Positions 2,203-64,000 of a DNA stretch of 64,000 nt are shown one piece after another. The notes beneath the pieces were generated by a model. That model was not told the origin of the DNA, ran no database searches, and saw only the letters and a program-made list of their open reading frames with translations. Both the position numbers and the translations under genes were made by a program. The DNA comes from Serratia nevei (GTDB lineage Bacteria > Pseudomonadota > Gammaproteobacteria > Enterobacterales > Enterobacteriaceae). Each line of letters starts with the position of its first letter. Positions within the stretch are counted from its first letter, which is position 1. Location: contig NZ_CP149940.1 of the NCBI RefSeq assembly GCF_037948395.1, positions 4,526,001 through 4,590,000 of the forward strand, written 5' to 3'.

Positions 2203-3729
2203 TTATCTGCTCCCATCTTTTTTGGCTGACGGAAGTTTTGATACCAATCGCAAGGACACGGTCATGCCTTCCAACTGGTAATGCGGGCGCAAATAGAAAT
2301 GTGCGCGGTAATAACCCGGATCGTCTTCAACATCCTCAACGCGAACTTCGGCGGCGGCCAATGGACGACGCGCTTTCGTCGCCTCCGTCGACACGGAAGG
2401 ATCGCCATCGACGTAATTCATCAGCCAGTCATTCAGCCACCGCTGCATATCGTCTCTGGAACGGAAAGAACCGATTTTGTCGCGTACGATGCATTTCAAA
2501 TAGTGCGCAAAGCGGCACGTGGCGAAAATGTACGGCAGCCGGGAGGAAAGCTTGGCGTTGGCCGTCGCATCCGGATCTTCGTATTTCGCCGGGGCATGCA
2601 TGGTGCAAGAACCGATAAAGGCAGCGAAATCAGAATGCTTGCGATACACCAAAGGCAAGAACCCGGCGTCTGACAGCTCTTGCTCGCGCCGATCGGAAAT
2701 GGCGACCTCCGTCGGACACGTCAGCTCATAACCGCCCTCATCGGAAGGAAACGCGTAGGCGGGCAGTTCTTCTACCGAGCCGCCGGATTCGATGCCGCGG
2801 ATTTTCGAGCACCAACCGTACTCATGGAAGGCGCGGTTGATGTTGACGCCCATCGCATACGCCGAGTTGGCCCAGGAGAAATCATCATCCATATCCGGCC
2901 GGACGGCCTCCTCGAAAGCGAACTCTTCGATCGGGTTGGTCTTGGCACCGTAAGGCAAACGCGACAGGAAGCGCGGCATGGTCAGCACCAGATAACGCGA
3001 ATCGTTGCTTTCGCGCAGGCGGCGCCAGGACGCATATTCCGGCGTGGTGAAAATCTTGCCGATATCCCGCGGGTTGCCCAGTTCGTTCCACTTGCTCATC
3101 TGCAGCAGCGACGGCGAAGCGGCGGAAATAAACGGACAGTGCGAGGCGGCGGAAATTTTCGCCAGCTCCGTCAGCAGCGTCACGCTCATCGGGCTGTGAT
3201 CGAACTCAAAATCGCCGATGATGCAACCGAACGGCTCGCCACCGAATTGACCATACTCGCGTTCGTAAATTTGTTTGAACACCGGGCTTTGATCCCAGGC
3301 CGATCCTCGGTAGCGCCGCAGATTGCGCGTCAGCTCATCCTGACTGATGTTCAATACCCGAATCTTCAGCGTTTCGCTGACGTTGGTATTGTCGACCAGA
3401 TAACTCAGACCTTGCCAGGCGGACTCCAGCTTCTGGAACTCCTTGTGGTGCAAGATATTGTTCATCTGCTGCGAAAGCTGCTCGTCGATCTGGGCGATCA
3501 GCGATTCAATGGTCAATACGACATCCTGGCTGACCTTGACCTTGCCCTGGTTGGCATATTCGGACAGCGTGCCGATGGCACGACGAACCGCTTCTGAGGC
3601 CTCGTTCGTTCTGGGCCGGAACGAACGCTTGAGCAGACCGTCAAGCTCGTTTTCCGTTTCCTGCGTTTCAACTTCAGCGACCGCCGTTGCCTGCTGCTTA
3701 GCTGAATAGCGTCGTTGCCTCGCTCTCAT
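2203..3729 (-). CDS. tssC: TssC (VipB), T6SS sheath large subunit
   Basis: Predicted 508 residues, the normal length for TssC. With TssB it forms the contractile sheath around the Hcp tube. Family features seen: ...IDEQLSQQMNNILHHKEFQ... near residue 80, the GIIGDFEF-like segment (IIGDFEFDHSP) near residue 165, and the C-terminal ...YYRAHFYLRPHYQLEG segment. The start codon overlaps the tssB stop by 4 bp (ATGA), implying translational coupling, as expected for two proteins needed in equal amounts. No disruption was seen. Confidence 0.95.
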   Translation of the reverse strand: MRARQRRYSAKQQATAVAEVETQETENELDGLLKRSFRPRTNEASEAVRRAIGTLSEYANQGKVKVSQDVVLTIESLIAQIDEQLSQQMNNILHHKEFQKLESAWQGLSYLVDNTNVSETLKIRVLNISQDELTRNLRRYRGSAWDQSPVFKQIYEREYGQFGGEPFGCIIGDFEFDHSPMSVTLLTELAKISAASHCPFISAASPSLLQMSKWNELGNPRDIGKIFTTPEYASWRRLRESNDSRYLVLTMPRFLSRLPYGAKTNPIEEFAFEEAVRPDMDDDFSWANSAYAMGVNINRAFHEYGWCSKIRGIESGGSVEELPAYAFPSDEGGYELTCPTEVAISDRREQELSDAGFLPLVYRKHSDFAAFIGSCTMHAPAKYEDPDATANAKLSSRLPYIFATCRFAHYLKCIVRDKIGSFRSRDDMQRWLNDWLMNYVDGDPSVSTEATKARRPLAAAEVRVEDVEDDPGYYRAHFYLRPHYQLEGMTVSLRLVSKLPSAKKDGSR

Positions 3730-4283
3730 TCCTCATCTCCTTTATTGCCCGAATCCTGCACATCCTGTTCCGCATCCGCGACCGTTTTGCGTGCATCCGT
3801 CACCAAGCGATGCAGAAAATCGGGCTTCTCCAGCAGATTCTTCACCACCTCTTCCGCGCTGGATTTACCATCCATATACGTGATGAGCTCCGTGAGATGT
3901 TCCCGGGCTTCCAGCAGACGTTGCATCTGCGGAACCCGTTTGGCGATGGCACCAGGCGTAAAATCCTCCATCGATTCAAACTCTAATTCCACGTCCAGCA
4001 GCGCATCGTCTTCGCTCAGGGTATTCTCCACATAAAATTGAAGACGAGGTTTAATGGCGCGCATGCGATCGTTGAAATTGTCCTGATCGAACGTCAGGAA
4101 TTTCCGCTCTTCGATCGGCAGCAAAGGTTTTTTCCGATGCCCAGAGAGATCGGACATGACCCCCGTGACGAAAGGTAACTCTACTTTCTTTTGCGAACCG
4201 TAGAGCTCTACGTCATATTCAATTTGCACGCGGGGCGCGTTATTTTTACCGATAAATTTCTGAGAGCTTGAGTCCTTAGCCAT
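3726..4283 (-). CDS. tssB: TssB (VipA), T6SS sheath small subunit
   Basis: Predicted 185 residues. The N-terminal segments (KNNAPRVQIEYDVELYGSQ and KKVELPFVTGVMSDLSG) are diagnostic for TssB/VipA, the partner of TssC in the contractile sheath. The ATG follows AAAGGAGTTTTCCA. It overlaps tssC by 4 bp and lies 24 bp after tssA, so the three are probably one transcript. The length is slightly above the typical 165-175 residues because of an acidic C-terminal tail. Confidence 0.95.
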   Translation of the reverse strand: MAKDSSSQKFIGKNNAPRVQIEYDVELYGSQKKVELPFVTGVMSDLSGHRKKPLLPIEERKFLTFDQDNFNDRMRAIKPRLQFYVENTLSEDDALLDVELEFESMEDFTPGAIAKRVPQMQRLLEAREHLTELITYMDGKSSAEEVVKNLLEKPDFLHRLVTDARKTVADAEQDVQDSGNKGDEE

Positions 4284-4307
4284 TGGAAAACTCCTTTGTG
4301 AGAAAAA

Positions 4308-5258
4308 TTACTTCCCGGACAATTGATTTAACGAGGCCAGAGATTCCGGCAAAAGCTCCTCAACAATCGTCGCGAAGTCCATACCGATCATTTTTTGCGA
4401 ACGTCGAATAAGAATGGGGGCCGGATGGCTGGGCTCATAGTTTTGGAAGTAGTCCAAAACCTGGTCCAACAGCAAGATGACATCCTGCCGGGAACGGATA
4501 TATTTGCCAGGCAGGGTGGCCGGTGCCTCCGCCGCTTCCGCGTCGACCGGCGCAGCGCCGATATCCTCCGGCAACTCCTGTTGTTCAAGAGAAAGCAATT
4601 GACGGCTGAACAGCGTCAAATAGTCACGCACCTGCCGGCAGTCCAGCCGATAATCTTCGGCCTGCAGGTTGGCGTAGTTTTCCACGCGCTCCAGGGCGTC
4701 TATTCCCCGAGACAGCTGTTCCTTTAATGGCGGCATGTTTCTGCCGGCAAAATAGCTGTCAGCCTGCCCCAACACTTTCACCACTTCCGAGAAATGCAGG
4801 CTTTTGCCTTCCTGCTCGTCAAGTCGCATATTGAGCAGTTCATCGGTGGTTAACGGCGTGTCGGGGAAAATCTTGCTGTTCTTGATTTCGTGCAGGCAGG
4901 ACGAGGTAGCGAGCCAGCCTAATGCGGCCGCATGAAAGCTGACTGTCGCCGGCTCCATATCGGCCTGAGGGAAAATGGTGCTCCCCTCTTCGGCATATTT
5001 GCCGTCGATAGTGGTGATGCCTTGATAGACAGCCGAAAAACCATCGATATGAAGATTGGCGCGCATAAGCCAGAGTATAACTCTCAAATCAAAACAACGT
5101 TCAAGTAGCTCTCTTGCCTTGTCGCGAATCACATTCCAATTAATATCATTGCCAATGTCTAAAGCATTTAATGGATCATTTTGACTGTCGTATTCTGATA
5201 AAGCGAACTCAAGCTCACAGTAGGAAGGCTCAAATTCAATTCCGTATTGTTCCTTCAT
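4308..5258 (-). CDS. tssA: TssA-type protein with ImpA N-terminal domain
   Basis: Predicted 316 residues. The first ~120 residues hold the ImpA_N pattern (INWNVIRDKARELLE, then DLRVILWLMRANLHIDG and ...GKYAEEGSTIFPQ). TssA proteins prime and cap the growing T6SS tail. The short length and the C-terminal segment (PAPILIRRSQKMIGMDF) fit the shorter TssA class rather than the ~500-residue class. It is the first gene of the visible cluster, with 500 bp of AT-rich DNA upstream, so the operon promoter is probably there. The ATG follows a weak AAAGGGAT site. Confidence 0.88.
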   Translation of the reverse strand: MKEQYGIEFEPSYCELEFALSEYDSQNDPLNALDIGNDINWNVIRDKARELLERCFDLRVILWLMRANLHIDGFSAVYQGITTIDGKYAEEGSTIFPQADMEPATVSFHAAALGWLATSSCLHEIKNSKIFPDTPLTTDELLNMRLDEQEGKSLHFSEVVKVLGQADSYFAGRNMPPLKEQLSRGIDALERVENYANLQAEDYRLDCRQVRDYLTLFSRQLLSLEQQELPEDIGAAPVDAEAAEAPATLPGKYIRSRQDVILLLDQVLDYFQNYEPSHPAPILIRRSQKMIGMDFATIVEELLPESLASLNQLSGK

Positions 5259-19207: not shown

Positions 19208-20302
19208 TTAAGCGAAGTCAACGCGCAGATAAGCCTGAGAAGTGACTGGCCCCTCAGCCGGTTTATTGCCGGTCACGCTAACCGGGTACACCCGAATAGT
19301 GACATTGGAATTACCATAGCTATCCAGACGGAACGGGATCACGCTCGACAGGCTGTTAGGGGTCAATGCCGTCCCACTATTGTCCGCCACAATAAAACCG
19401 ACGTCGTTATTCGTGTTGGTGACAACCGCTTTACCGCTAACTTTATCAGCCTGTAAACGCACCGTCATTGCTGTGTTGGGTGCGATATTATCGCAACTGA
19501 CGTTAACGTTACGTACAATGTCATTGACGCCTTCGGGACGAGCACCGGCAGTGGTAAATGCTCCCGATGATATATTTCCGAAATCAATATTAATCACCTG
19601 ACCTGCGTTAAGGGTGCAAGATTGGGTAGCGGTAATATTTAAATTTAAATAAATATTTCTACTGGTTTGAGCTGAAGTGCAGTCATCCGGTTGACAATAC
19701 CCTGCCCTTGCAATAAGTATCGTTCTCGAATACGTCCCACTAACAATTTTACGTCTAAGTTTTATTTGCGATTGCAATTGCAAAGCATTGAGGGTGGCGA
19801 CCTCACCTGCTGAGTATGTTCTCTGCTTGCAATCATTCCCAGAACCACTCCAAATATTGACATTAAATGGAACGTAAATGTAGCCGCCACCAGAAAAGGC
19901 ACATTCACTATGTCGCCTCAAAGCAACTTGAATGTAGTCATCAACATTTCTATACGCCCAATCTATCGTATAATGCCCTGGAGCAGAAACTGGATCACCA
20001 CTATAGGCAATCCATTGCATAGCTTTTGCGGCCGTCGTCATCCTCATCTGCATTGCCGATATTGCCACCGGAGAGCTCGCTTTCGTGTAGCCCACAGCAT
20101 TCTCATTTGAACTTAGCGTATCAGTTATTGTTGTCGTCACAGAACCACAGCCAGAAACACACTGTGCCGCAGAATGCGCATCGGGAGAAAGAGTAAAAAA
20201 TATCATCATCAGCATGAAATTAATCACTCCAATATTCTGATGCTCAAATCTTTTTAATAAACGCACCATCTGCCCACCATTTACAATAATATCATTGTTC
20301 AT
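19208..20302 (-). CDS. Two-domain fimbrial tip adhesin (FimH-like)
   Basis: Predicted 364 residues, about twice a pilin. The ATG at 20302 overlaps the usher stop (ATGA); an upstream GTG is less likely. A signal region ends near DAHSA. The N-terminal ~200 residues contain several cysteines (CVSGC, SECAF, NDCKQR, YCQPDDC) and would be the receptor-binding domain. The C-terminal part from about residue 225 (TQSCTLNAG, then SCDNIAPN, ending QAYLRVDFA) is a pilin domain. This layout is standard for tip adhesins assembled by chaperone and usher. The receptor cannot be read from the sequence. Confidence 0.82.
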   Translation of the reverse strand: MNNDIIVNGGQMVRLLKRFEHQNIGVINFMLMMIFFTLSPDAHSAAQCVSGCGSVTTTITDTLSSNENAVGYTKASSPVAISAMQMRMTTAAKAMQWIAYSGDPVSAPGHYTIDWAYRNVDDYIQVALRRHSECAFSGGGYIYVPFNVNIWSGSGNDCKQRTYSAGEVATLNALQLQSQIKLRRKIVSGTYSRTILIARAGYCQPDDCTSAQTSRNIYLNLNITATQSCTLNAGQVINIDFGNISSGAFTTAGARPEGVNDIVRNVNVSCDNIAPNTAMTVRLQADKVSGKAVVTNTNNDVGFIVADNSGTALTPNSLSSVIPFRLDSYGNSNVTIRVYPVSVTGNKPAEGPVTSQAYLRVDFA

Positions 20303-22938
20303 AAACACCCAGCCCGCGCATAGCTGATACCGCGCTTCTCGCTGCCCTCACCCAGTGCATAGCTGACCGCGCATTGCTGATTGGACGCCTGCCCCCACAT
20401 CACCTGCAACTTGCCCTGAGGGGCCAGACCGGACATGAATACCTGTCCGCTATCACCGACTATGCCGGTTTTACCCGCCTCATCCGTTACCATGGCACCG
20501 AACGGAACCGGCTTGCCATTGCGCTGCGTCAGGGTAATTCTTGCCCGTGCCCCGATACGCGTCTCAAAGCTTGCCCGTACCAGCGCCCCTTTGGTTGGCA
20601 CCACATTCAGTACCGCATCCTCCAGGTCGGCATTGTCTTTCAGCGTCGTGGTATCCAGCGAGATTCGGTTGGTACGATACGTCGTGGCATAAGGCACCAC
20701 GGCATAACCGCGCCAGTCAGTACTGACCCCCGTGGCGTTCTGCACGCGTACGCCATCGGCACCCGGCGCCTTCACCAGCACGTTGGTGTCACCCAGTGGT
20801 TGGCTAAGAGTTACGCCGTCCGCATGGGCCACGATACCGCCGCTCAAGCCATAGTTAACCTGCTGCCAGTGTCTACCGTAGCTATATCCCACATTGCTGT
20901 TGCCATAACGTCCCTGGTAGTTGAGACTGGCCGTGCCCGAGGCGCCTTCGCCTTTGGTGGTATAACCTTGCTGCACGCTGTAATTCAGGTTGTTGTCAGC
21001 CAATAACGTGCCGTTAATGCCTGCCTGCTGGGATACCCGACCACTTTTGTCATGGGTCGCCGAGTACGTCGCATACGCGCTATTGCTGGAATTGGTGATA
21101 TCTCTCGCCTTCCCACCACCGGTCAACCAGCGACTCAGCGGTACGGAGACATTGAAGGCCAGACGCTTGTCCGTGCCTTGCACGCCCGGGTTACGGTTCC
21201 ACGACCAGTCAAGCCCATAACTGATATCTTCCCAGCTGCCGTTATACCCCACCTGCCAAAGCTGGTCCGTATCACCGGTACGCCAGTAAGTCTGACGACT
21301 CCCCGTCAGATACAGGGACCCTTCCGTGCCAATTTGCTGACTGATATTGACCTGAATACGCCCCTTCTTGGAGTAGTACAGGTTATGGTAATCCTCAATT
21401 ACCGGCTCCGTTGGGACCGGACCATCCTGCGTTTTCAGGGTATAACCCTGCATCTGCTTGTAGCTGGTTTCATTGAGCGTGTAGAAACCCTGGGTCGAGT
21501 AGCGATAACCCAGTAACTGAAAGTTGGTTCCGTAATCGTTCAGTGATTTGGCGTACAGGAAGCGCAATGATTGCCCTTCTTTATGGCTATCGTCAGGCAA
21601 CACGCTGCGCGCATGCGTAACATCCGCAGATACCGCGCCCCATGTCCCCAGGTTTTTACCTGCGCCGAACGCATAGGATTGGTAGTTGTCAGACAATTGC
21701 GAACCACCGTACAGCGTCACCCCCGCCGGCAACCCCCACAGCACAGTCCCCTGCCAAAAGTCAGGCTCATCTTGCAAGTTTGATGCTGAGCGATATTTAC
21801 CCGCCGTCAGCGCGTACTTGACACGCCCTTCACGCTGCAAAATCGGCACCGCAGAGTACGGTACGGTAAATTGGTTACTGGTGCCGTTATTTTCCTTTAC
21901 CGTCACCTGCAGGTCACCACTGGTGGAGGTTGGATAAAGGTCAGTAATTTCAAAAGCCCCTGGTGGGACGTAAGACTGATAGATGACATAGCCGTTCTGT
22001 TTAATGGTGACCTGCGCATTACTGTTGGCCACACCCCGTACCGTCGGCGCAAACCCGCGCTGGCTATCCGGCAGCATATTGTCATCCGTCGCCAGCTGAA
22101 CCCCTCTGAAGCTCAGGCTGTCGAACACATCGCTGTTGGTAAAACTGTCACCGAGAGTCAACTCCCCTTTAAGCGGCACAATACTGCGCTGAAGGTAAGT
22201 GCTGACATTTTTCCAATCACTGTTGCGATAGCGTCCACTGTCGCTGTAATTCCAGGTACTGTTATTTCGAAGGCGCCATGCCCCCAAGTTCAACCCGCTG
22301 TTGAGATTCAAGAAATAACTGTTATAACGTGATCCTGTGGCCGACGTGAGGCTATTGCTCCCTGAAAAGGCATAGTTCAACATCCCCGCCGTGATACCGT
22401 TATCCCATTGCTCTGGAGGAATATAACCACGTACGTTGTTTTTCAATGCCGCTTGCGGGACGCTGACATAAAGGCGCTGACTGTCAAATTCAAAGCGCGT
22501 TGACGCTTTATCAAAGGCAGCCGGCAAATTAGCACACTGTCCTTTGCTCAAGGCACTCAATACCGGCACCGCTTCGACATTAACATTGCGCTGACTCAAC
22601 CACTCCCGACTCAGACACGGTATCAGCCCCGTATCATCCTTGTTTGCAGAGCCGGATTTTGCCGCATCAAACCGCATATCCTGCGTACCGATATATTCGT
22701 CGTTAAGATAAACCTCGACACGATAAACCCCAGCCGGTTGCTCTCCTTTCTCAAAACGAGACAAATCAGCCACATTGTTCGCATCGCTGGATAAGAATGA
22801 CGGGTTAAAATAGGTGTCAGCACACGCCATACCGCTGCCTAGCAGCAAACCGCCGACAACACTTATACGAGGCAGCATGAACAGGCTCATCCACACTGCA
22901 TTTTTTCTGAAATGCATTGGCAGTTTTAAATACTGCAT
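20299..22938 (-). CDS. fimD: FimD-type outer-membrane usher
   Basis: Predicted 879 residues, normal for FimD ushers. After a signal region (ending GSGMACA) come FNPSFLSSD and DLSRFEKGEQPAGVYRV, the typical N-terminal chaperone-binding domain; then the barrel with the family segments RGVQLATDDNMLPDSQRGFAP (split here by me), APTVRGVANSNAQV and PPGAFEITDLYPTS; the C-terminal domain holds QCAVSYALG with a Cys pair. Ushers recruit chaperone-subunit complexes and polymerise the fimbria. It lies 127 bp after the chaperone gene and overlaps the adhesin by 4 bp. The start has GGAGT upstream. Confidence 0.95.
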   Translation of the reverse strand: MQYLKLPMHFRKNAVWMSLFMLPRISVVGGLLLGSGMACADTYFNPSFLSSDANNVADLSRFEKGEQPAGVYRVEVYLNDEYIGTQDMRFDAAKSGSANKDDTGLIPCLSREWLSQRNVNVEAVPVLSALSKGQCANLPAAFDKASTRFEFDSQRLYVSVPQAALKNNVRGYIPPEQWDNGITAGMLNYAFSGSNSLTSATGSRYNSYFLNLNSGLNLGAWRLRNNSTWNYSDSGRYRNSDWKNVSTYLQRSIVPLKGELTLGDSFTNSDVFDSLSFRGVQLATDDNMLPDSQRGFAPTVRGVANSNAQVTIKQNGYVIYQSYVPPGAFEITDLYPTSTSGDLQVTVKENNGTSNQFTVPYSAVPILQREGRVKYALTAGKYRSASNLQDEPDFWQGTVLWGLPAGVTLYGGSQLSDNYQSYAFGAGKNLGTWGAVSADVTHARSVLPDDSHKEGQSLRFLYAKSLNDYGTNFQLLGYRYSTQGFYTLNETSYKQMQGYTLKTQDGPVPTEPVIEDYHNLYYSKKGRIQVNISQQIGTEGSLYLTGSRQTYWRTGDTDQLWQVGYNGSWEDISYGLDWSWNRNPGVQGTDKRLAFNVSVPLSRWLTGGGKARDITNSSNSAYATYSATHDKSGRVSQQAGINGTLLADNNLNYSVQQGYTTKGEGASGTASLNYQGRYGNSNVGYSYGRHWQQVNYGLSGGIVAHADGVTLSQPLGDTNVLVKAPGADGVRVQNATGVSTDWRGYAVVPYATTYRTNRISLDTTTLKDNADLEDAVLNVVPTKGALVRASFETRIGARARITLTQRNGKPVPFGAMVTDEAGKTGIVGDSGQVFMSGLAPQGKLQVMWGQASNQQCAVSYALGEGSEKRGISYARAGCL

Positions 22939-56347: not shown

Positions 56348-56394
56348 GATTGAAAATCCCCGTGTCCTTGGTTCGATTCCGAGTCCGGGCACCA
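56348..56394 (+). tRNA. tRNA-Phe 3' end fragment, ICE attachment site
   Basis: The 47 bases from GATTGAAAATCCCCGTG to ...GAGTCCGGGCACCA equal the anticodon-loop-to-3'-end part of enterobacterial tRNA-Phe (GAA anticodon in TTGAAAA), including the CCA. Upstream bases do not continue the tRNA, so it is a fragment made by site-specific ICE integration, not a working gene. It lies 91 bp from parA, as at the tRNA-Phe ends of SPI-7-like elements. The complete tRNA is expected at the other ICE end. Confidence 0.88.
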
Positions 56395-57290
56395 TATTTA
56401 GAGAACCCAGCCTATGGCTGGGTTTTTCGCTTTCTGGAGTACGGACTCTCCATCGAACTACGTTCGATTATTCGGCCAAGGGCCTCACCCTACGGGCCAG
56501 CGCTAAAGCGCTGTTCAACCCGGCGCAGGCGCCGGTTGTCCGAGTCCGGTCGCCCTATTTAGAGAACCCAGCCTATGGCTGGGTTTTTCGCTTTCTGGAG
56601 TACGGACTCTCCATCGAACTACGTTCGATTATTCGGCCAAGGGCCTCACCCTACGGGCCAGCGCTAAAGCGCTGTTCAACCCGGCGCAGGCGCCGGTTGT
56701 CCGAGTCCGGTCGCCCTATTTAGAGAACCCAGCCTATGGCTGGGTTTTTGCTTTTCAGGGACAGGACTCTCCATCGAACTGCGTTCGATTATTCGGCCAA
56801 AGGCCTCACCCTGCGGACCAGCGCTGAAGCGCTGTTCAACGCGGCGCAGGCGCCGGTTGTCCGAGTCCGGGCACCCTATTTAGAAGAACCCGCCTATGGC
56901 TGGGTTTTTGCTTTCTGAGATACGGACTCTCCATCGAACTACGTTCGATTATTCGGTCTGAAGACCTCACCCTGCGGGCCAGCGCTAAAGCGCTGTTCAA
57001 CCCAGCGCAGGCGCCGGTTGTCCGAGTCCGGGCACCCTATTTAGAAGAACCCGCCTATGGCGGGTTTTTCGTTTTCTGGGATACGGACTCTCCATCGAAC
57101 TACGTTCGATTATTCGGTCTGAAGGCCTCACCCTGCGGGCCAGCGCTAAAGCGCTGTTCAACCCGGCACAGGCGCCCGTTGTCCGAGTCCGGGCACCCTA
57201 TTTAGAATAACCCGCCTATGGCGGGTTTTTCGTTTTCTGGGATACGGACTCTCCATCGAACTACGTTCGATGATGCGGCCAAGGGCCTCG
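56395..57290 (+). repeat. 161-bp tandem repeats carrying tRNA-Phe 3' end pieces (RtT-like)
   Basis: Units begin TATTTAGA at 56395, 56556, 56717, 56877, 57038 and 57199 (periods 161, 161, 160, 161, 161); the last is broken off near 57290. Each has a terminator-like hairpin AACCC(A)GCC-TAT-GGC(T)GGGTT+T, then TCGAAC-TAC-GTTCGA, GGCC-aa-GGCC, CAGCGC-TAAA-GCGCTG, CCGGCGC-AG-GCGCCGG and finally CCGAGTCCGG(G/T)C(A/G)CC, which copies the tRNA-Phe 3' end. The design matches the E. coli tyrT tpr/rtT repeats, which also each carry a piece of tRNA 3' end. 161 is not a multiple of three, so no long protein runs through. Confidence 0.85.
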
Positions 57291-57494: not shown

Positions 57495-57911
57495 CTATAT
57501 AGTTAATGAACGTATACCGAATAACTGTTTGAGCTGAAAATCAACGGCTGGAAGAACCGGTGAAAATAAATGACGAGTGGTTTTATACGGAAAAATTTTT
57601 CCCTGGTTTACTATGTGGTCTCTGATTTTTAACGGGCAGAAGGGCTCACCATTATTCCAGTCGTGTACTCTCACGCGTACATCAGTATAATCAAGCAATA
57701 TACAAGGAAGGTACATTAGCCCAAGATTATTGGCCACACGATATCGATGGTTGCCATCCATAATGATCCCCGTGTGCTTTTCAATGGGAACGGGTGTTAT
57801 CCATTTTTGGCAACGCGCTATCTCCTCTGTTAATGCTATAACATGTTCCATATTGACCTCTTCAGAGGGACGGATCAAGGCAACTGGGTGTAATATTACC
57901 TCATACTGCAT
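57495..57911 (-). CDS. SbnI/SerK-like ParB-fold protein (putative serine kinase)
   Basis: Predicted 138 residues from the ATG at 57911, with AGGTGAGGTG before it, 7 bp after the stop of the preceding gene. The ParB/sulfiredoxin-like fold is indicated by HPVALIRPSEEVNMEHVIAL and IIMDGNHRYRVANNLG. SbnI of Staphylococcus aureus, of the same fold, is a free-serine kinase supplying O-phospho-L-serine to SbnA. An SbnA homologue is in this operon, which makes that role attractive. The protein is shorter than SbnI (about 254 residues), so only the catalytic-type domain is present; kinase activity is inference. Confidence 0.7.
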   Translation of the reverse strand: MQYEVILHPVALIRPSEEVNMEHVIALTEEIARCQKWITPVPIEKHTGIIMDGNHRYRVANNLGLMYLPCILLDYTDVRVRVHDWNNGEPFCPLKIRDHIVNQGKIFPYKTTRHLFSPVLPAVDFQLKQLFGIRSLTI

Positions 57912-57918
57912 GTTCACC

Positions 57919-59103
57919 TCACCTGAAATTTTCAAGGGCATTAAGTAAGATATCTATCTCATCTTCACTGTTATACGCATGAACGGATGCACGAACGACT
58001 GACTCCAGCCCACGATTTCGCATGTCAATGAATGTCGAACTAAATCGAGAACATGAGACATTAATTCGACGTGGTTGAGCCGATAGGTATTCCTTAACAG
58101 ATTCAGCTGTTTTATTTTTAACTGTAAATGTAACTATTCCTGATAGATTATCTCCTTTATCCTGTAACTGAACGTGCGTTATACATTTCAGGCCTAAGCG
58201 AAGTTGCTTAGCCAACTTAAAAATTCTTTGCGTTACTTTATCTTGCCCTAACGAAAGCGCATATTTCGCGGCAGCCCCCAGGCCAAGCCTGTCAGCGATA
58301 TTTGCCTCCCAGCATTCGAATCGTCGGGCTCCCTCGCTAATATGATAACTCTGCTCATCTATAAGTCTTGCAGCATGGTGATCAAGCCACACCGGTTCAA
58401 TATTCGAACTCAGGGTGCTGTCCATCCATAAAAAACCCGTACCGCGTGGAGCTCGCAGGTATTTACGCCCTGAGGCTGTTAACACGTGGCACCCAATTTT
58501 TTGGACATCAAGTTGTAAATGTCCAATACCCTGGCAAGCATCAAGGAAAAACCACACGCCAGCATCACGAGCAAGGGCGCCCATTTTTTCTACCGGCTGT
58601 ATTGGTCCCCCATGAGTTCCCAGTATTGGGAGGCTGATTAATCTGACCCGAGGGTTGCCAAGGGCATGTTGTAATTGCTTCAGACAAACAGCCCCCTCCT
58701 CATCCGCTTCCAGAATGTTGATCTGAATGCCATCACGTTTTTGTCGTTGCAGGTAAGGTATATAATTACCTGCATATTCAGTGGTCGAAGTCAGGATGAT
58801 ATCTCCAGGGCGCAAGGGAAGAGAGTAGAATGCGATGTCCCAGGCCCGGGTAGCATTTTCCACAAGCGCGATATCTGCAGGCTTTGCCTGGATCATTTTC
58901 GCCAGATAACCATATATATCACTAAGCCATTGGCGCTCACTCTCTGCGGCTTCATACCCACCGAGGGTAATTTCTTTTAAATAGTGTTCATGCACAGCCT
59001 GTATAACCGGGACAGGCATTAAGCTTGCTCCTGCATTGTTAAAATGAATAACATGCTCAGTCCCTGGCGTGTCAGCGCGGAGTTGTGCCAGACTTAACGT
59101 CAT
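57919..59103 (-). CDS. Class V aminotransferase-fold PLP enzyme
   Basis: Predicted 394 residues. Class V features: IHFNNAGASLMPVPV at the start, VENATRAWDIAFYS, FLDACQGIGHLQLDVQ and the PLP lysine in TASGRKYLRAPRGTGFLW near residue 210. Relatives include cysteine desulfurases, isopenicillin-N epimerases and EgtE-like lyases, so the reaction (transamination, epimerisation or C-S/C-N lyase) cannot be read. It overlaps the binding-protein gene by 32 bp. Its place in a Dap/opine-type metallophore operon suggests it makes or modifies an amino-acid unit. Confidence 0.82.
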   Translation of the reverse strand: MTLSLAQLRADTPGTEHVIHFNNAGASLMPVPVIQAVHEHYLKEITLGGYEAAESERQWLSDIYGYLAKMIQAKPADIALVENATRAWDIAFYSLPLRPGDIILTSTTEYAGNYIPYLQRQKRDGIQINILEADEEGAVCLKQLQHALGNPRVRLISLPILGTHGGPIQPVEKMGALARDAGVWFFLDACQGIGHLQLDVQKIGCHVLTASGRKYLRAPRGTGFLWMDSTLSSNIEPVWLDHHAARLIDEQSYHISEGARRFECWEANIADRLGLGAAAKYALSLGQDKVTQRIFKLAKQLRLGLKCITHVQLQDKGDNLSGIVTFTVKNKTAESVKEYLSAQPRRINVSCSRFSSTFIDMRNRGLESVVRASVHAYNSEDEIDILLNALENFR

Positions 59104-60232
59104 GGTTATTCTCCTCTTTTTTCAGGCTTACCATATACCCGGATTGATACGGAACGGGAAGAAATTCCTGATGCATACGACGGAATGTGTCATCAGGGGC
59201 CAGGTCCGCGAATAATTGTGGATGTATCCATCTGGCGAGTTGCTGGATGGCAATAACGTCATACGGGCTGTTGTAGAACTGATGCCAGATGGCGAAAAAT
59301 GCGCTATTACGGCGGGCAGTGCTATCTGCATAAGCTGGACGGGTGGTGAACCATGCCAGCTTACGCCTGGACTCCTCGATATTGACGCCCGGTCCGAGAG
59401 GGATCCACCTTCCGCCAGGAACGAAGGCCTGAAAATTCCCGCTGGTGAGTATGACGACATCAGGATTTGCAGCTATCACCTTTTCAGGATTTAGCGTAAA
59501 AAATGAACCGGGAGCAAGATTGGCTGCGATATTGTCTCCTCCGGCTAATTTAACAAAACGCCCAAAGCTCCCCTTTCCAAAGGTCATACAGCATTCTTCT
59601 GAATAACCTCCAAGACGTTCTAAAAATACCTTTGGCAATGGCTTCTGTAATTTTAAAGTCCTGGATATGACGCGTTGTAACTCACTATCGCGAAACTTTA
59701 AATAGGCTTCAGAGCGTTCCGATTGACCAAATAACTCGCCAAATAGTTTCACTGTAGGAGGAATATGTGCAATAGGGTCATACCGAAAATCCACATAGAC
59801 AATTGGGATACCCGCACTGGCAAGTGCGGCTTCATACCCTGAGTCAACAATGGCATTTCGCGCATCCATATTCATGATGATGACGTCAGGTTTCAAATTA
59901 ATAGCCTGTTCGATATCGAAGGTCCCTTGCTCGCTGCCTCCAAATGTCGGGATTTTCTCCAGTTGTGGAAACTGTTGCCGGTACTGCTGCCATGTTGCCG
60001 GATCTGACTGTATTAAATCTTTCCGCCAGGCCACTATCCTCTTGGCAGGATTTTCTTTATCAAGCATTGCGACCAGATACAGTTGGCGCCCTTCCCCAAG
60101 GATGACACGCTGTACCGGTAATTTGATGTTAACGGTTCGGCCAAGGAGATCGGTTACAGGCGTCACCGTCTGTTCAGCATGAGCAACTGATGAGGTTAAC
60201 AATACAATAAAGAGCACAAGTCGTAATATCAT
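59072..60232 (-). CDS. Iron-siderophore ABC-type substrate-binding protein
   Basis: Predicted 386 residues with signal peptide MILRLVLFIVLLTSSVAHA. Fe-siderophore binding-protein features (PF01497 style): VTDLLGRTVNIKLPVQRVIL, FGGSEQGTFDIEQAINLKPDVII, GGDNIAANLAPGSFFTLNPE. It overlaps the MFS gene stop by 4 bp. No permease or ATPase gene follows in the window, so these may lie elsewhere, or the protein works with a general uptake system. Its presence argues that the product of this operon binds a metal. Confidence 0.85.
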   Translation of the reverse strand: MILRLVLFIVLLTSSVAHAEQTVTPVTDLLGRTVNIKLPVQRVILGEGRQLYLVAMLDKENPAKRIVAWRKDLIQSDPATWQQYRQQFPQLEKIPTFGGSEQGTFDIEQAINLKPDVIIMNMDARNAIVDSGYEAALASAGIPIVYVDFRYDPIAHIPPTVKLFGELFGQSERSEAYLKFRDSELQRVISRTLKLQKPLPKVFLERLGGYSEECCMTFGKGSFGRFVKLAGGDNIAANLAPGSFFTLNPEKVIAANPDVVILTSGNFQAFVPGGRWIPLGPGVNIEESRRKLAWFTTRPAYADSTARRNSAFFAIWHQFYNSPYDVIAIQQLARWIHPQLFADLAPDDTFRRMHQEFLPVPYQSGYMVSLKKEENNHDVKSGTTPR

Positions 60233-61461
60233 TTTTCATAACCTATTTTCTTGTTGAATTCCCTTGAAGAACGGCTGATTTTTAACGTAATCATTAAAGT
60301 CATGGAATACATGACCACAACGCAAAGAAACAACGCTGACAACCCCGGCCAGAGAAGGACTACGCCCCCCAAAGCAATACCTATGATGGAGGCGAACTGG
60401 CTGATGCTCTGGACCACCCCCAATATATACCCTTGCATACCTTCGGCTGTTGTGCGCGAAATTAATGCGGTAAGCACAGGCGTGGTTGCGCCAAGGAGAA
60501 TTCCCCATAAAAAATAAAGCCCGATGAACCAGCTGGTTTCCCTTACTGTAGCCAGCAGCAGTGTTACCAGGATACATCCCATGATGATCCCCACCATTCG
60601 GTAGAGCGTGCTGGCTATATCGTGCGCTTCAAACCATCTTGCCCAGAGAGACGCTGATACAATCACTCCCGTAGCCTGTAATCCATAAGCTAATCCTGTT
60701 AGCCAATTAGGGGCATTGAACACCGTGCTGACATAAAGAGAAAAAGGCGTTTGCGTAATCATGCGGCTCATTAATAACAAGCCAAGAACCGTCAGTAAGC
60801 CAACAATGACGCCATTGTTGATTCCAGTTGGAGTCCTTTTCTTATCTTTTGAATGAACAGCTGAAGTAGACGAGACTCCATGAGGAGCATCAGCAGGTAA
60901 TATGAAAAGAACAATCAGTGCACATAGCGTACAAATAATGAATGCGCTGACGTTTATCCAGAAGAAACTCAGTAGATCGAGAATGGCTCCCCCGATAATC
61001 GCCCCTGCCAAAGAGCCTGCGTTGGTCGACACCTGCAACCAGGCAAAAAGTCTCGTACGCTGTGCCGCTGGCACCATTGCAATACCATAGGCCTGCGCCG
61101 GCGCAATATAACCCGCACAGGTACCCTGTAAAAAACGTAAAATAAGCACCAGCCAGACGTCATTGGCGAAAGCAAGCCCAAGTTGCGTTAATGCCAGGCC
61201 CATCAGTGCGCGGATCATCATGACTTTATTGCCCGTTATGTCGCCTACCCGCCCCCAGAATGTGCTGGTTAGCATAACGCCAAGCATCGGTGCTATATAC
61301 ACCCCTGTGCCAGCGATGCTCAGTAGTTCTGTGGACGTCATGCTTTCGATATGAAGCGGCCAAAAAGGGCCGCTCATTTCCATCGCTCCCATCGAAAGCA
61401 GTTGCACGATAAACAGAAACTGGACAATAAAAGTCACACTGCCCGTTACGCGCATCCTCAT
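60229..61461 (-). CDS. MFS transporter, probable metallophore exporter
   Basis: Predicted 410 residues with about 12 membrane helices. The ATG at 61461 overlaps the dehydrogenase stop (ATGA) with GGAGG just before it; the open frame to 61533 is out of coding context. MFS hallmarks: FWGRVGDITGNKVMMIRAL (loop 2-3 motif) and RFLQGTCAGYIAPAQAYG. In siderophore operons such a transporter usually exports the product. Direction is inferred. Confidence 0.85.
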   Translation of the reverse strand: MRMRVTGSVTFIVQFLFIVQLLSMGAMEMSGPFWPLHIESMTSTELLSIAGTGVYIAPMLGVMLTSTFWGRVGDITGNKVMMIRALMGLALTQLGLAFANDVWLVLILRFLQGTCAGYIAPAQAYGIAMVPAAQRTRLFAWLQVSTNAGSLAGAIIGGAILDLLSFFWINVSAFIICTLCALIVLFILPADAPHGVSSTSAVHSKDKKRTPTGINNGVIVGLLTVLGLLLMSRMITQTPFSLYVSTVFNAPNWLTGLAYGLQATGVIVSASLWARWFEAHDIASTLYRMVGIIMGCILVTLLLATVRETSWFIGLYFLWGILLGATTPVLTALISRTTAEGMQGYILGVVQSISQFASIIGIALGGVVLLWPGLSALFLCVVVMYSMTLMITLKISRSSREFNKKIGYEK

Positions 61462-62615
61462 TCCCTCCTTATCGTTGGCCAATCGGCGGGGATCGGGGAG
61501 CGGGCAATCTTCCCTCCCATATACTCGAAACACCAGTAATAGATTTCTTCTATATATGGTGTTGGCACCTTGAGCCTCTGGCCGATTAAAACCAGCAGGC
61601 TTAAACCGCAGCCAATATCTTCCCGAAAGACCCGATGGTTTTTGTCAAAAATAAAAGTGTCGGATCGCCCTTCGCGGATCAGAGGCAGCGGGATCCCCTC
61701 ATAGGCCTTATTCGTTCGTAAAATACTGAGGAGTGTTCTGGGGTCAGAAATTGAGTCACCGTATGCCTCGACTATTTCCTGCTGCAATGGCTGCACAGAG
61801 CTGAGATCGATACCCAGTGAAAGTTCGGCAGCTTTACATAAGGCCTGATTTTCCTCATCACAGCGAGCAAGGAAATAAGCACCGAGTTCAGGGCAATCAC
61901 TCCACCAACACGGAATATGATTGAAAGCATGCCCGTGCCACTGCCCCCATGGGCCGATGAGGCCATAAATGACGGAACTGTGCATGATTGGATTTCCTGG
62001 TGTAAGGGTAATCTCCAGATAATTAGACAGCAGAGTGACGGGAGCCTCATAAAGCTGCCTCAGATAATCAAGCAGAATATCGGTATTCTCAGGTGTTTCC
62101 CGGCGATGAACAGCCACGTACAACTGTGATTTCTCCCCCCCTATCCTGACACTTTTTCCGGGTACAAGATCAAACGCAATATGGGGGACATCTTTCATGC
62201 CCCATATAACAATATTCGATAAGCCTCCAAATGCTTTTTCTGCCAGCCAGTCAAATCCGCCAAAACCGGGAATGGCTCCGACGAAGACCTGCTTATGCCG
62301 GGGCAGCGCTGGCGCGATGCTTTGAAGCACGCTTTCGCGTACATGGCTTGGGGCAGTAATGATAATGAGATCTGCAGCGGCGCAGGCTTCATCGACTGAC
62401 GCCGTCATCCTGACGGCAGAGGCTTTTATGACATTTGCGTCAGGCATGATCGCATGCAACTGAGCGCCACTGCCTTGATATGCGGTGACAGTTTCTGGCC
62501 GGCTAGTGTAAAGAGTTACTGCAACTGCGGGATTTTGACTGAATAAAATGGCAGCAAGGTGGCCCGTACGGCCGGCCCCACATATTGTTACCCTTAACTT
62601 CTCGCCTGAGAACAT
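61458..62615 (-). CDS. Octopine/opine dehydrogenase-family enzyme
   Basis: Predicted 385 residues. Rossmann nucleotide site VTICGAGRTGHLAAILF near residues 9-25, and an octopine-dehydrogenase C-terminal domain with TPGNPIMHSSVIYG, where the His is the likely catalytic residue. These NAD(P)H enzymes join an amine to an alpha-keto acid (opines; CntM in staphylopine) or run the reverse. In classical staphyloferrin B pathways the step after SbnA is SbnB, a different (ornithine cyclodeaminase-like) fold; here this enzyme occupies that place. Start and SbnA stop overlap (TAATG). Confidence 0.85.
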   Translation of the reverse strand: MFSGEKLRVTICGAGRTGHLAAILFSQNPAVAVTLYTSRPETVTAYQGSGAQLHAIMPDANVIKASAVRMTASVDEACAAADLIIITAPSHVRESVLQSIAPALPRHKQVFVGAIPGFGGFDWLAEKAFGGLSNIVIWGMKDVPHIAFDLVPGKSVRIGGEKSQLYVAVHRRETPENTDILLDYLRQLYEAPVTLLSNYLEITLTPGNPIMHSSVIYGLIGPWGQWHGHAFNHIPCWWSDCPELGAYFLARCDEENQALCKAAELSLGIDLSSVQPLQQEIVEAYGDSISDPRTLLSILRTNKAYEGIPLPLIREGRSDTFIFDKNHRVFREDIGCGLSLLVLIGQRLKVPTPYIEEIYYWCFEYMGGKIARSPIPADWPTIRRE

Positions 62616-63628
62616 TATTCTCCCTCCTGAACAGAAGAGAGTGCAAACCAGCCATCAAGTTTCTCCCAGACTTGCTCGGAGAGAAGATCCCGTTCTTTGA
62701 GCCACTCCTCATTGAAGATCGTATTTAGATATTTTTCACCGCCATCTGCAATAACGAGAGCCACATTCCCCCGAATCGTTCCATTATTGATAAATTCCAA
62801 CGCTTTATATATTGCACCACCGGTAGAACCGCCAACAAGCAGCCCGAAACGGCGCGCAAGATAGCGTGCAGTTTCAAAAGCGCAGACGTCGGAAACCTGT
62901 TCACCATAATCAATGCAGCTGTAATCCAGAACTAATCCGACGGTGTCTCCTTCCGGTGTGCCGGTCCCTGATTGATAATAGGGTTTTCCTGGCTTGCCAA
63001 ATACGATAGAGCCTTCTGGCTCTACCGCGATCGTAACTGTATCCGGATTATGAACCTTGAGACCATGCGCTATCCCTGTCATCGAACCGCCAGTGCCAAC
63101 ACATCCAATCCACGCGTCGACTTTGCCAATCTGGCAGATAATTTCACGCACCAGGTCTGCATATCCACCGGCATTGGCCGCATTATCTGATTGGTTCATG
63201 AAAACTGCGCCGGGTATTTCACCTGCAATTTCAGCCGCCATACGCTGTCGTTCCACAACCGCGACTTCATTTTCACCATAATTACCCTTAACGTAACGAA
63301 TATCTGCTCCCAGAGCTCGCATGATGGTAATTTTATCCTGAGCGGCATGATGGTCCACCACTGCAATAAATTTAAGCCCAAATTCGATAGCCGCAATGGC
63401 CAGGCCGATCCCCGTATTTCCTGATGATGATTCAACAATCGTCCCACCTGGTTGGATCCGCCCTGATTTCAGCGCCGCAACAATCATATTTCTGGCCATG
63501 CGATCTTTCATGCTCCCGCCAGGATTGTTCTTCTCCACTTTGATATAAAGACGAGAGTCAGATTGCGCCAGCGGTAATTGAATGACGGGAGTATTGCCAA
63601 TCAAATCAGTTACTTTTCTGAAGATCAT
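62615..63628 (-). CDS. sbnA: SbnA-like 2,3-diaminopropionate synthesis enzyme
   Basis: Predicted 337 residues of the cysteine-synthase fold-II PLP family. The PLP lysine is K41 in NNPGGSMKDRMARN; the phosphate loop is GTGGSMTG; SSSGNTGIGLAIA is the substrate-loop signature. The opening MIFRKVTDLIGNTPVI and the length are those of SbnA, which combines O-phospho-L-serine and L-glutamate into ACEGA, the precursor of L-2,3-diaminopropionate. A cysteine synthase is the alternative, but context and the SbnI-like gene favour SbnA. It begins 11 bp after the decarboxylase stop, with AAGGAG overlapping that stop region. Confidence 0.85.
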   Translation of the reverse strand: MIFRKVTDLIGNTPVIQLPLAQSDSRLYIKVEKNNPGGSMKDRMARNMIVAALKSGRIQPGGTIVESSSGNTGIGLAIAAIEFGLKFIAVVDHHAAQDKITIMRALGADIRYVKGNYGENEVAVVERQRMAAEIAGEIPGAVFMNQSDNAANAGGYADLVREIICQIGKVDAWIGCVGTGGSMTGIAHGLKVHNPDTVTIAVEPEGSIVFGKPGKPYYQSGTGTPEGDTVGLVLDYSCIDYGEQVSDVCAFETARYLARRFGLLVGGSTGGAIYKALEFINNGTIRGNVALVIADGGEKYLNTIFNEEWLKERDLLSEQVWEKLDGWFALSSVQEGE

Positions 63629-63639
63629 TTTACAACTCC

Positions 63640-64000
63640 TTAATTGTCAACGGTAAAAATGAGGTTTTGGCGCGAGCTCATGACAGCGGTCAGTCTTGTG
63701 GGGAGCGGGTGCCGGTGGAACTGGTTTTCCAGTAAATCCATTTGGTAACCAGCGGTATTGGCAAATATCAGCAAGTCGCCCGGTTCAGGCAGGTGCTTGA
63801 ATGCAATCAGACGGTTAGTTATAACGTCCTCGTCAAGGCAACTATGACCCGCAATCCATGCTTTCGCAGCAGGAGATGGCTCATGAGAATTCTGACGAAT
63901 ATGAAGCGGATCGCTTAAGAATTCAGAGTTAAACCACGTTTCGCATGCACTGAAGCTACTTCCCTCGACAAAAATAACGTATCCGGAATCACCGTGAGGC
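63640..64000 (-). CDS. SbnH/LysA-like PLP decarboxylase, partial
   Basis: The 5' part lies beyond the right edge; the last 120 codons are visible and open. Text such as AWIAGHSCLDEDVITNRLI, LPEPGDLLIFANTAGYQMDL and HRHPLPTRLTAVM matches the C-terminal sheet domain of fold-III decarboxylases (Orn/DAP/Arg group 2), with the conserved Cys in GHSCLDEDV and Tyr in AGYQMD. SbnH, of this type, decarboxylates a diaminopropionate-containing intermediate in staphyloferrin B. Its stop is TAA at 63640-63642, just before sbnA, so it belongs to the same operon. Confidence 0.8.
   Translation of the reverse strand, partial: PHGDSGYVIFVEGSSFSACETWFNSEFLSDPLHIRQNSHEPSPAAKAWIAGHSCLDEDVITNRLIAFKHLPEPGDLLIFANTAGYQMDLLENQFHRHPLPTRLTAVMSSRQNLIFTVDN

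Follow-up and report, generated by a model that had tools for sequence, protein, structure and literature searches.

A Serratia nevei siderophore cluster of the proteobactin/y4x-y4y type and its probable product, rhizobactin or rhizobactin B

The DNA analysed here (the window) is a stretch of 64,000 nucleotides from Serratia nevei (assembly GCF_037948395.1, contig NZ_CP149940.1, positions 4,526,001 to 4,590,000), at whose right end (57495-64000) seven leftward genes form part of a siderophore operon. The operon probably belongs to a horizontally acquired cluster with a nonribosomal peptide synthetase-independent siderophore (NIS) synthetase, of the type named proteobactin (pbt) in Proteus mirabilis and y4x-y4y in rhizobia, and its product is probably rhizobactin or rhizobactin B. 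This rhizobactin-type reading is based on a reported producer, Pseudomonas sp. FEN, which carries the same ten genes together with the only NIS synthetase found in its genome. The initial annotation had proposed a candidate new metallophore operon, a claim that could not be kept as worded, since nine of the ten genes recur, with their order unchanged, in the proteobactin locus; the cluster is most likely a new Serratia member of the proteobactin/y4x family, with rhizobactin or rhizobactin B as its product.

The same annotation had described the seven genes as an overlapping leftward operon and had named their families, which was borne out: the open reading frames (ORFs) overlap or lie a few bases apart, and the Pfam families are Aminotran_5, Peripla_BP_2, MFS_1, Octopine_DH and PALP, the decarboxylase being LysA-type (Y4yA family in the annotation of Serratia marcescens E28). 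It had seen neither an NIS synthetase nor a receptor, which is true within the window but is an effect of its edge; it had also pointed beyond 64000 for an IucA/IucC-type synthetase and a TonB receptor, and both lie just past that position. There the operon runs on with the rest of the decarboxylase gene, a TonB receptor gene and one IucA/IucC (NIS) synthetase gene, followed by a divergent CitE-like lyase gene. Features past the window end are given on L009, a stretch that reads on beyond it, where window position equals L009 position + 56999 (register checked):

57495..57911, minus strand: putative minimal free serine kinase of the SerK/SbnI type, 138 amino acids (NCBIfam SerK at E 4e-9, below cut-off; SerK in the PDB by sequence; AlphaFold (AF2) model)
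57919..59103, minus strand: class V pyridoxal 5′-phosphate (PLP) enzyme, cysteine-desulfurase/EgtE/PvdN-like, accessory (Pfam Aminotran_5 and nearest solved structures)
59072..60232, minus strand: ferri-siderophore periplasmic binding protein (Peripla_BP_2; ferrichrome/ferrioxamine-type NCBIfam below cut-off)
60229..61455, minus strand: major facilitator superfamily (MFS) exporter (MFS_1; best NCBIfam the rhizoferrin exporter FslB, below cut-off)
61458..62615, minus strand: opine dehydrogenase of the octopine dehydrogenase family (Pfam Octopine_DH)
62615..63628, minus strand: SbnA/cysteine-synthase-like PLP enzyme (Pfam PALP)
63640..64000, minus strand: C-terminal part of a Y4yA-type PLP decarboxylase (whole gene at L009 6641-8041, reaching about 65040 on the window scale)
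L009 8053-10164, beyond the window: TonB-dependent siderophore receptor
L009 10193-12064, beyond the window: IucA/IucC NIS synthetase (best curated match FslA, below cut-off)
L009 12186-12210, gap between the divergent NIS and CitE-like genes: Fur-box-like site (3 mismatches to the consensus, the best such site within 20 kb)
L009 12224-13093, divergent: CitE-like HpcH/HpaI-family lyase (best curated match RipC, an itaconate-degradation lyase, below cut-off)

According to the co-linear annotation of S. marcescens E28, the kinase gene most likely starts at 57911 and not at 57941, and the MFS gene starts at 61455. In the window genome, each of the ten genes has an open reading frame of a length similar to that of its relatives. 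RipC, named above, cleaves citramalyl-CoA. The best Fur-box-like site of the FEN locus (4 mismatches) also lies in a divergent gap, before the decarboxylase gene, and the best ones of the P. mirabilis locus have 5 mismatches and are not promoter-specific.

Rhizobactin was described in 1984-85. Pseudomonas sp. FEN was reported to release rhizobactin and a larger amount of rhizobactin B, on the evidence of high-resolution mass spectrometry (MS), MS/MS and nuclear magnetic resonance (NMR) (Kugler et al. 2020, PMC7676072). Rhizobactin consists of ethylenediamine, alanine, lysine and malic acid, citramalate replacing malate in rhizobactin B; the NMR table gives assignments for the citramalate and alanine portions of rhizobactin B, rhizobactin itself being identified by mass and fragmentation, and it was in a rhizobium that the malate form was originally discovered (PMC7676072). 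The FEN locus (L067) carries all ten genes of the Serratia cluster, including the CitE-like and class V genes, and differs from it in gene order and in having ORFs that resemble FecI/FecR-type regulators (read by eye). Moreover, when whole genomes were searched with PF04183, the window genome, FEN and P. mirabilis each yielded a single NIS synthetase (3/3), always inside the cluster. The suggestion in the initial annotation that an ethylenediamine-type unit carries an opine linkage, for which rhizobactin is the precedent, thus gained support from the same gene set and sole NIS synthetase found in a reported rhizobactin producer.

The rhizobactin 1021 (rhb) pathway employs two NIS synthetases and a lysine/diamine N-monooxygenase. 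A route of this type was rejected for the rhizobactin B of FEN, where only one NIS synthetase was found, as in the window genome, and where the N-monooxygenase matches were weak and partial. Six such matches to the Lys/Orn N-monooxygenase family were obtained in FEN, the best with 51 bits (a full-length example scores 360); all of them exceeded the low Pfam cut-off of 21.3, one only together with its neighbours, and 12 of 14 control genomes matched as well. The name 'rhizobactin' in PMC12815270 refers to the hydroxamate of Sinorhizobium meliloti 2011.

With the ten genes, one candidate enzyme is available for each bond of rhizobactin. The SerK-like kinase would make O-phospho-L-serine, on which the SbnA-like enzyme would carry out a beta-replacement by the alpha-amine of lysine; the Y4yA decarboxylase would strip the serine-derived carboxylate to leave the ethylenediamine unit, and the octopine-dehydrogenase homologue would reductively condense the ethylenediamine amine with pyruvate. 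Decarboxylation is placed before the opine step because a PLP decarboxylase would need the free amine that the dehydrogenase consumes. The single NIS synthetase would then form an amide between lysine N6 and malate or citramalate, the CitE-like aldolase probably supplying the citramalate of rhizobactin B. Finally, the MFS protein would export the product, the TonB receptor and the binding protein would re-import its iron complex, and the divergent promoter with the Fur-box-like site would drive the operon. The gene content, its conservation, the single NIS synthetase and the occurrence of these genes in a reported producer are shown, while every substrate assignment (lysine, pyruvate and malate or citramalate among them) and the regulation are inferred. 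That the CitE-like gene makes citramalate is suggested by its presence in FEN, the maker of rhizobactin B, and by the rhizobial plasmids that lack it, the malate form having come from a rhizobium. The formulas of the route, C15H27N3O8 and C16H29N3O8, have computed [M+H]+ values of 378.1871 and 392.2027, and those reported were 378.1866 and 392.2020 (PMC7676072). The mass balance to the known formulas holds by construction: because the route was designed around the known structure, the agreement is a balance check and not independent evidence.

To survey related loci, the contigs of one genome per species (84,980 species) were scanned with a dehydrogenase pattern, which yielded 77 loci, close relatives by design. 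Genes were called at each locus by tblastn (E 1e-4, flanks of at most 10 kb), so that a gene elsewhere in the genome was scored as missing, and a few of the matches were weak. The decarboxylase, SbnA-like, dehydrogenase and NIS genes occurred together in all 77 loci, and the MFS gene in 76, the exception lying on a short contig piece. Receptor genes were found in 72 loci and SerK-like kinase genes in 71, and the binding protein was matched in 71 (a few weakly), followed by the CitE-like gene (29/77) and the class V PLP enzyme (24/77), the latter not being found in P. mirabilis. The 29 loci with a CitE-like gene were all gammaproteobacterial (23 Pseudomonas and 6 Enterobacterales), as against none of 48 alpha- and betaproteobacterial loci. 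Addition of the window genome, E28, AK83, NGR234 and a second P. mirabilis gave 82 aligned rows; decarboxylase rows were tblastn segments, 3 of 82 decarboxylase rows and 3 of 26 class V rows were left out by length, and short rows were retained in the kinase, dehydrogenase and SbnA-like alignments. Among the surveyed loci, several cluster genes are shortened in Arsenophonus endosymbionts (L015 and L085), suggesting siderophore decay in insect symbionts, and Providencia stuartii (L053) has a divergent cluster that is a candidate for making another product, its NIS synthetase standing on a very long branch (1.12 changes per column).

The kinase keeps the positions of the archaeal free serine kinase (Glu, Asp, His, Arg, Lys, Thr and His), and its Glu30-type residue, presumably the catalytic base, is Glu in 74 of 76 rows. 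An AF2 model was built on an alignment of 33 rows, picked from 73 located kinase proteins plus the window's own, and reached a predicted local distance difference test (pLDDT) score of 95. Its nine best Foldseek matches were one unnamed Pyrococcus protein (first), five SerK and three SbnI structures, with query TM-scores of 0.73-0.79 and a high root-mean-square deviation of 6-8, the middle part being missing from the kinase; ParB and sulfiredoxin ranked behind the SerK/SbnI matches. By sequence and model, the small protein, labelled SbnI-like in the initial annotation, looks like a minimal SerK/SbnI-type serine kinase. The label 'SbnA' of the PALP-family enzyme also needed correction: SbnA is its best curated family, but the score against TIGR03945 was 237 bits (cut-off 350). 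Its PLP lysine, K41, is present in 82/82 rows. Arg132, Tyr152 and Ser185 of Staphylococcus aureus SbnA are reported to select phosphoserine (PMC12414870), and Tyr152 and Ser185 are replaced by Ser147 and Gly178 in all 82 rows, the equivalent of Arg132 being ambiguous (MAFFT pairs E121, and an ungapped count back from Q146 gives R127). To judge from its sequence, this PLP enzyme is better named SbnA-like, and its nucleophile need not be glutamate.

As for the dehydrogenase, its H212, R328 and D333, each at least 97% conserved in the 82 aligned rows, pair with His212, Arg324 and Asp329 of scallop octopine dehydrogenase, Asp329 being the aspartate of the catalytic dyad. Octopine dehydrogenase was described as having a His-Asp dyad, with His212, and Arg324 as the NADH sensor (PMC2924402); both of these family features are kept in the window dehydrogenase. 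The class V PLP enzyme has its PLP lysine, K214, in 23/23 rows, and its cysteine position 351 is Thr in 19 of them.

The proteobactin locus pbtABCDEFGHI of P. mirabilis has been characterised genetically, and comprises a citrate lyase beta gene on the opposite strand, the pbtA synthetase, a receptor, a decarboxylase, a PLP enzyme, an octopine/opine dehydrogenase, an MFS protein, a binding protein and a hypothetical protein, in this order (PMC11026637). The Serratia cluster has this nine-gene set, the pbt order and the divergent citrate-lyase-beta-like gene, and nine of its ten genes are matched in P. mirabilis ATCC 29906, in the same order, at 70-88% protein identity for the best match of each; by position, the pbt hypothetical protein corresponds to the serine kinase of the Serratia cluster. 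It differs by one extra gene, that of the class V PLP enzyme, for which P. mirabilis gave no match. Furthermore, an ABC permease and ATPase (PMI0229-0230) adjoin pbt (PMC11026637), and no such ORFs were seen beside the Serratia CitE-like gene. The class V PLP enzyme seems dispensable for the scaffold: none was found in P. mirabilis, a species said to lose iron chelation when both of its siderophore systems are mutated (PMC11026637). Mutants of P. mirabilis lacking the proteobactin synthetase gene have also been reported (PMC11026637). Proteobactin was predicted to be a hydroxy-carboxylate siderophore, with PbtA placed together with Y4xN of Sinorhizobium fredii (PMC11026637). By the initial annotation, a match to a fully characterised pathway with the same gene set would have refuted the idea of a new operon; this applies only by half, as proteobactin is characterised genetically, but the parts of the review available (PMC11026637) give no structure.

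In the y4x-y4y clusters of S. fredii NGR234 and S. meliloti AK83 (pSINME01), the SerK-like, Y4yA, SbnA-like, opine dehydrogenase, NIS and MFS genes also form one gene run, but CitE-like and class V PLP genes were not found, nor was a receptor or binding protein near the copy on pNGR234a. Plasmids of S. meliloti strains other than DM4, the original rhizobactin producer, carry the cluster. The pNGR234a cluster (L091 9192-16237) adjoins type III secretion and nodulation genes, and a rhizobactin-type siderophore may belong to that symbiosis region. With staphyloferrin B (sbn), the Serratia cluster shares the logic of combining NIS synthesis with a serine kinase (SbnI in sbn), a PLP enzyme acting on phosphoserine (SbnA) and a decarboxylase that also uses PLP (SbnH). 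The staphyloferrin B cluster has three NIS synthetases, and its citrate comes from SbnG, an aldolase of the HpcH/HpaI superfamily. In contrast, the Serratia cluster has one NIS synthetase and an opine dehydrogenase, no SbnB, and replacements at Y152 and S185 of SbnA. Opine chemistry within a metallophore is likewise found in the CntM (staphylopine-type) systems; however, the Serratia dehydrogenase belongs to the Octopine_DH family, an NIS synthetase is present, and a nicotianamine-synthase-like gene was not noticed, no search having been aimed at one. A CntM-type opine metallophore was rejected, the Pfam result for the dehydrogenase containing only Octopine_DH and two NAD-binding families and no CntM-type dehydrogenase.

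Several points weigh against a rhizobactin-type product. The authors of the FEN study tied rhizobactin B to homologues of rhbAB of rhizobactin 1021 (PMC7676072), and the FEN assembly is a 36-contig, 6.79-Mb draft (PMC7849696). The proposed route has no step for the class V PLP enzyme. With two SbnA phosphoserine residues replaced, the use of phosphoserine rests on the linked kinase, which was not found in 6 of the 77 loci. Moreover, the proposed amine has no carboxylate at the neighbouring carbon, whereas His212 of octopine dehydrogenase binds the carboxylate of its amine substrate (PMC2924402), and the presence of the CitE-like gene coincides with the class Gammaproteobacteria, ancestry being a confounder. 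The dehydrogenases of the window genome and FEN are about 51% identical, so that the amino acid, keto acid or hydroxy acid used in Serratia and Proteus could be a different one. Their product would then be some other opine-ethylenediamine siderophore (e.g. with ornithine, 2-oxoglutarate or citrate), and proteobactin a relative of rhizobactin and not rhizobactin itself. In favour of this, a tree of the NIS synthetases (79 of 82 rows, quick method) placed the window gene with that of E28 and then P. mirabilis, in an Enterobacterales clade well apart from the Pseudomonas clade of FEN, the genes are arranged differently and the presence of the class V PLP enzyme varies. However, the gene content matches that of FEN down to the CitE-like and class V genes, and the catalytic residues are conserved across the family, and we regard a different product as improbable.

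Less probable still is a diaminopropionate route along the lines of the other proposal of the initial annotation, the dehydrogenase as a replacement of SbnB. In such a route, the SbnA-like enzyme would make N-(1-amino-1-carboxyl-2-ethyl)-glutamic acid (ACEGA) from phosphoserine and glutamate, the opine dehydrogenase, working oxidatively, would take over from SbnB in releasing diaminopropionate, and the decarboxylase and the NIS synthetase would build this into a carboxylate siderophore. ACEGA would formally be an opine of diaminopropionate and 2-oxoglutarate, so that an opine dehydrogenase could cleave it, and SbnA is the best curated family of the PLP enzyme, although below cut-off. No SbnB scored above the TIGR03944 cut-off in any of seven genomes, weaker relatives of that large family appearing in all seven (with the same profile, 2 of 274 genomes of the class scored above cut-off); its absence by the curated cut-off fits either the rhizobactin route or a replacement of SbnB. 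What argues against the proposal is that two of the three phosphoserine-recognition residues of SbnA are replaced in 82/82 rows, that the rhizobactin of FEN would be left without an NIS synthetase of its own, and that one NIS synthetase would give no evident complete product. Finally, it is very improbable that the cluster is a decayed or silent relic in the window genome: shortened genes in the Arsenophonus clusters, an IS903 in the 5′ part of the decarboxylase gene of E28 and a sporadic presence in the genus (1/30 genomes) would speak for it, but in the window genome the ten genes are all open, with lengths like those of relatives, and the Fur-box-like site (3 mismatches to the consensus) lies in the divergent promoter.

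Concerning the genomic setting of the cluster, S. marcescens E28 carries the same cluster with 96.8% DNA identity (window part), the block common to both genomes being about 12.7 kb long (L009 433-13125). Among 30 genomes of the genus, the dehydrogenase was found at E 1e-60 in the window genome only. The stretches that flank the cluster in E28 adjoin each other elsewhere in the window genome, near C1:1976440, and the two strains thus carry the cluster at different sites. A direct repeat of 20 bp around the E28 insertion, which overlapping coordinates had suggested, was discarded, the longest exact repeat near both ends being 8 bp. The IS903 of E28 (L012 26145-28358) has flanking matches that overlap by 9 bases, like a target duplication, and the 67-kb record of that strain is labelled as a plasmid, yet has usually chromosomal genes (rne, pyrC, fab). 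In the window, the cluster abuts a conjugative element (about 27000-56300) with genes for a TraC-like ATPase, a TraG/TraD-like coupling protein, a topoisomerase, a DnaB-type helicase and a ParA-type ATPase. Between this element and the siderophore block lies a tandem repeat (56378-57289, 5.7 copies of a 161-bp unit), whose unit contains a stretch resembling a tRNA 3′ end (TCCGAGTCCGGGCACC); ARAGORN finds no tRNA gene in the window, and the idea of such a gene bordering the conjugative element was rejected. Other features are a Lys/Orn-type N-monooxygenase gene near the siderophore block (L009 15481-16776; best NCBIfam 'putative histamine N-monooxygenase', below cut-off), beside which no partner siderophore genes were noticed, and, at 2203-5258 and 20299-22938 of the window, genes for a type VI secretion sheath (VipB), ImpA_N and the usher of a chaperone-usher fimbria.

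On balance, we lean towards regarding this gene family as the biosynthetic locus that has been missing for rhizobactin and rhizobactin B, and the proteobactin of P. mirabilis as a rhizobactin-type siderophore. The gene set was already known in P. mirabilis, and the product assignment is what may be new. In the open-access subset searched, this assignment was not found (earlier publication is possible), no text named both proteobactin and rhizobactin, and 'rhizobactin B' occurred only in work on FEN; the literature reached names no biosynthesis genes for rhizobactin, the FEN study pointing to homologues of rhizobactin 1021. If the assignment is true, the family would include several activities not met in the literature searched: a PLP beta-replacement enzyme that puts the alpha-amine of lysine on phosphoserine, an opine dehydrogenase joining pyruvate to an ethylenediamine amine without a neighbouring carboxylate, an NIS synthetase loading malate or citramalate onto N6 of lysine, and, in the CitE-like aldolase, a citramalate synthase dedicated to moving the product towards rhizobactin B. 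One gene set would then link rhizobactin and proteobactin across rhizobia, Pseudomonas, Proteus, Serratia and insect symbionts, both being testable with the exact masses predicted, and the combination of an SbnA-like enzyme, an Octopine_DH protein, a Y4yA decarboxylase and one NIS synthetase would provide a genome-mining signature for aminopolycarboxylate siderophores.

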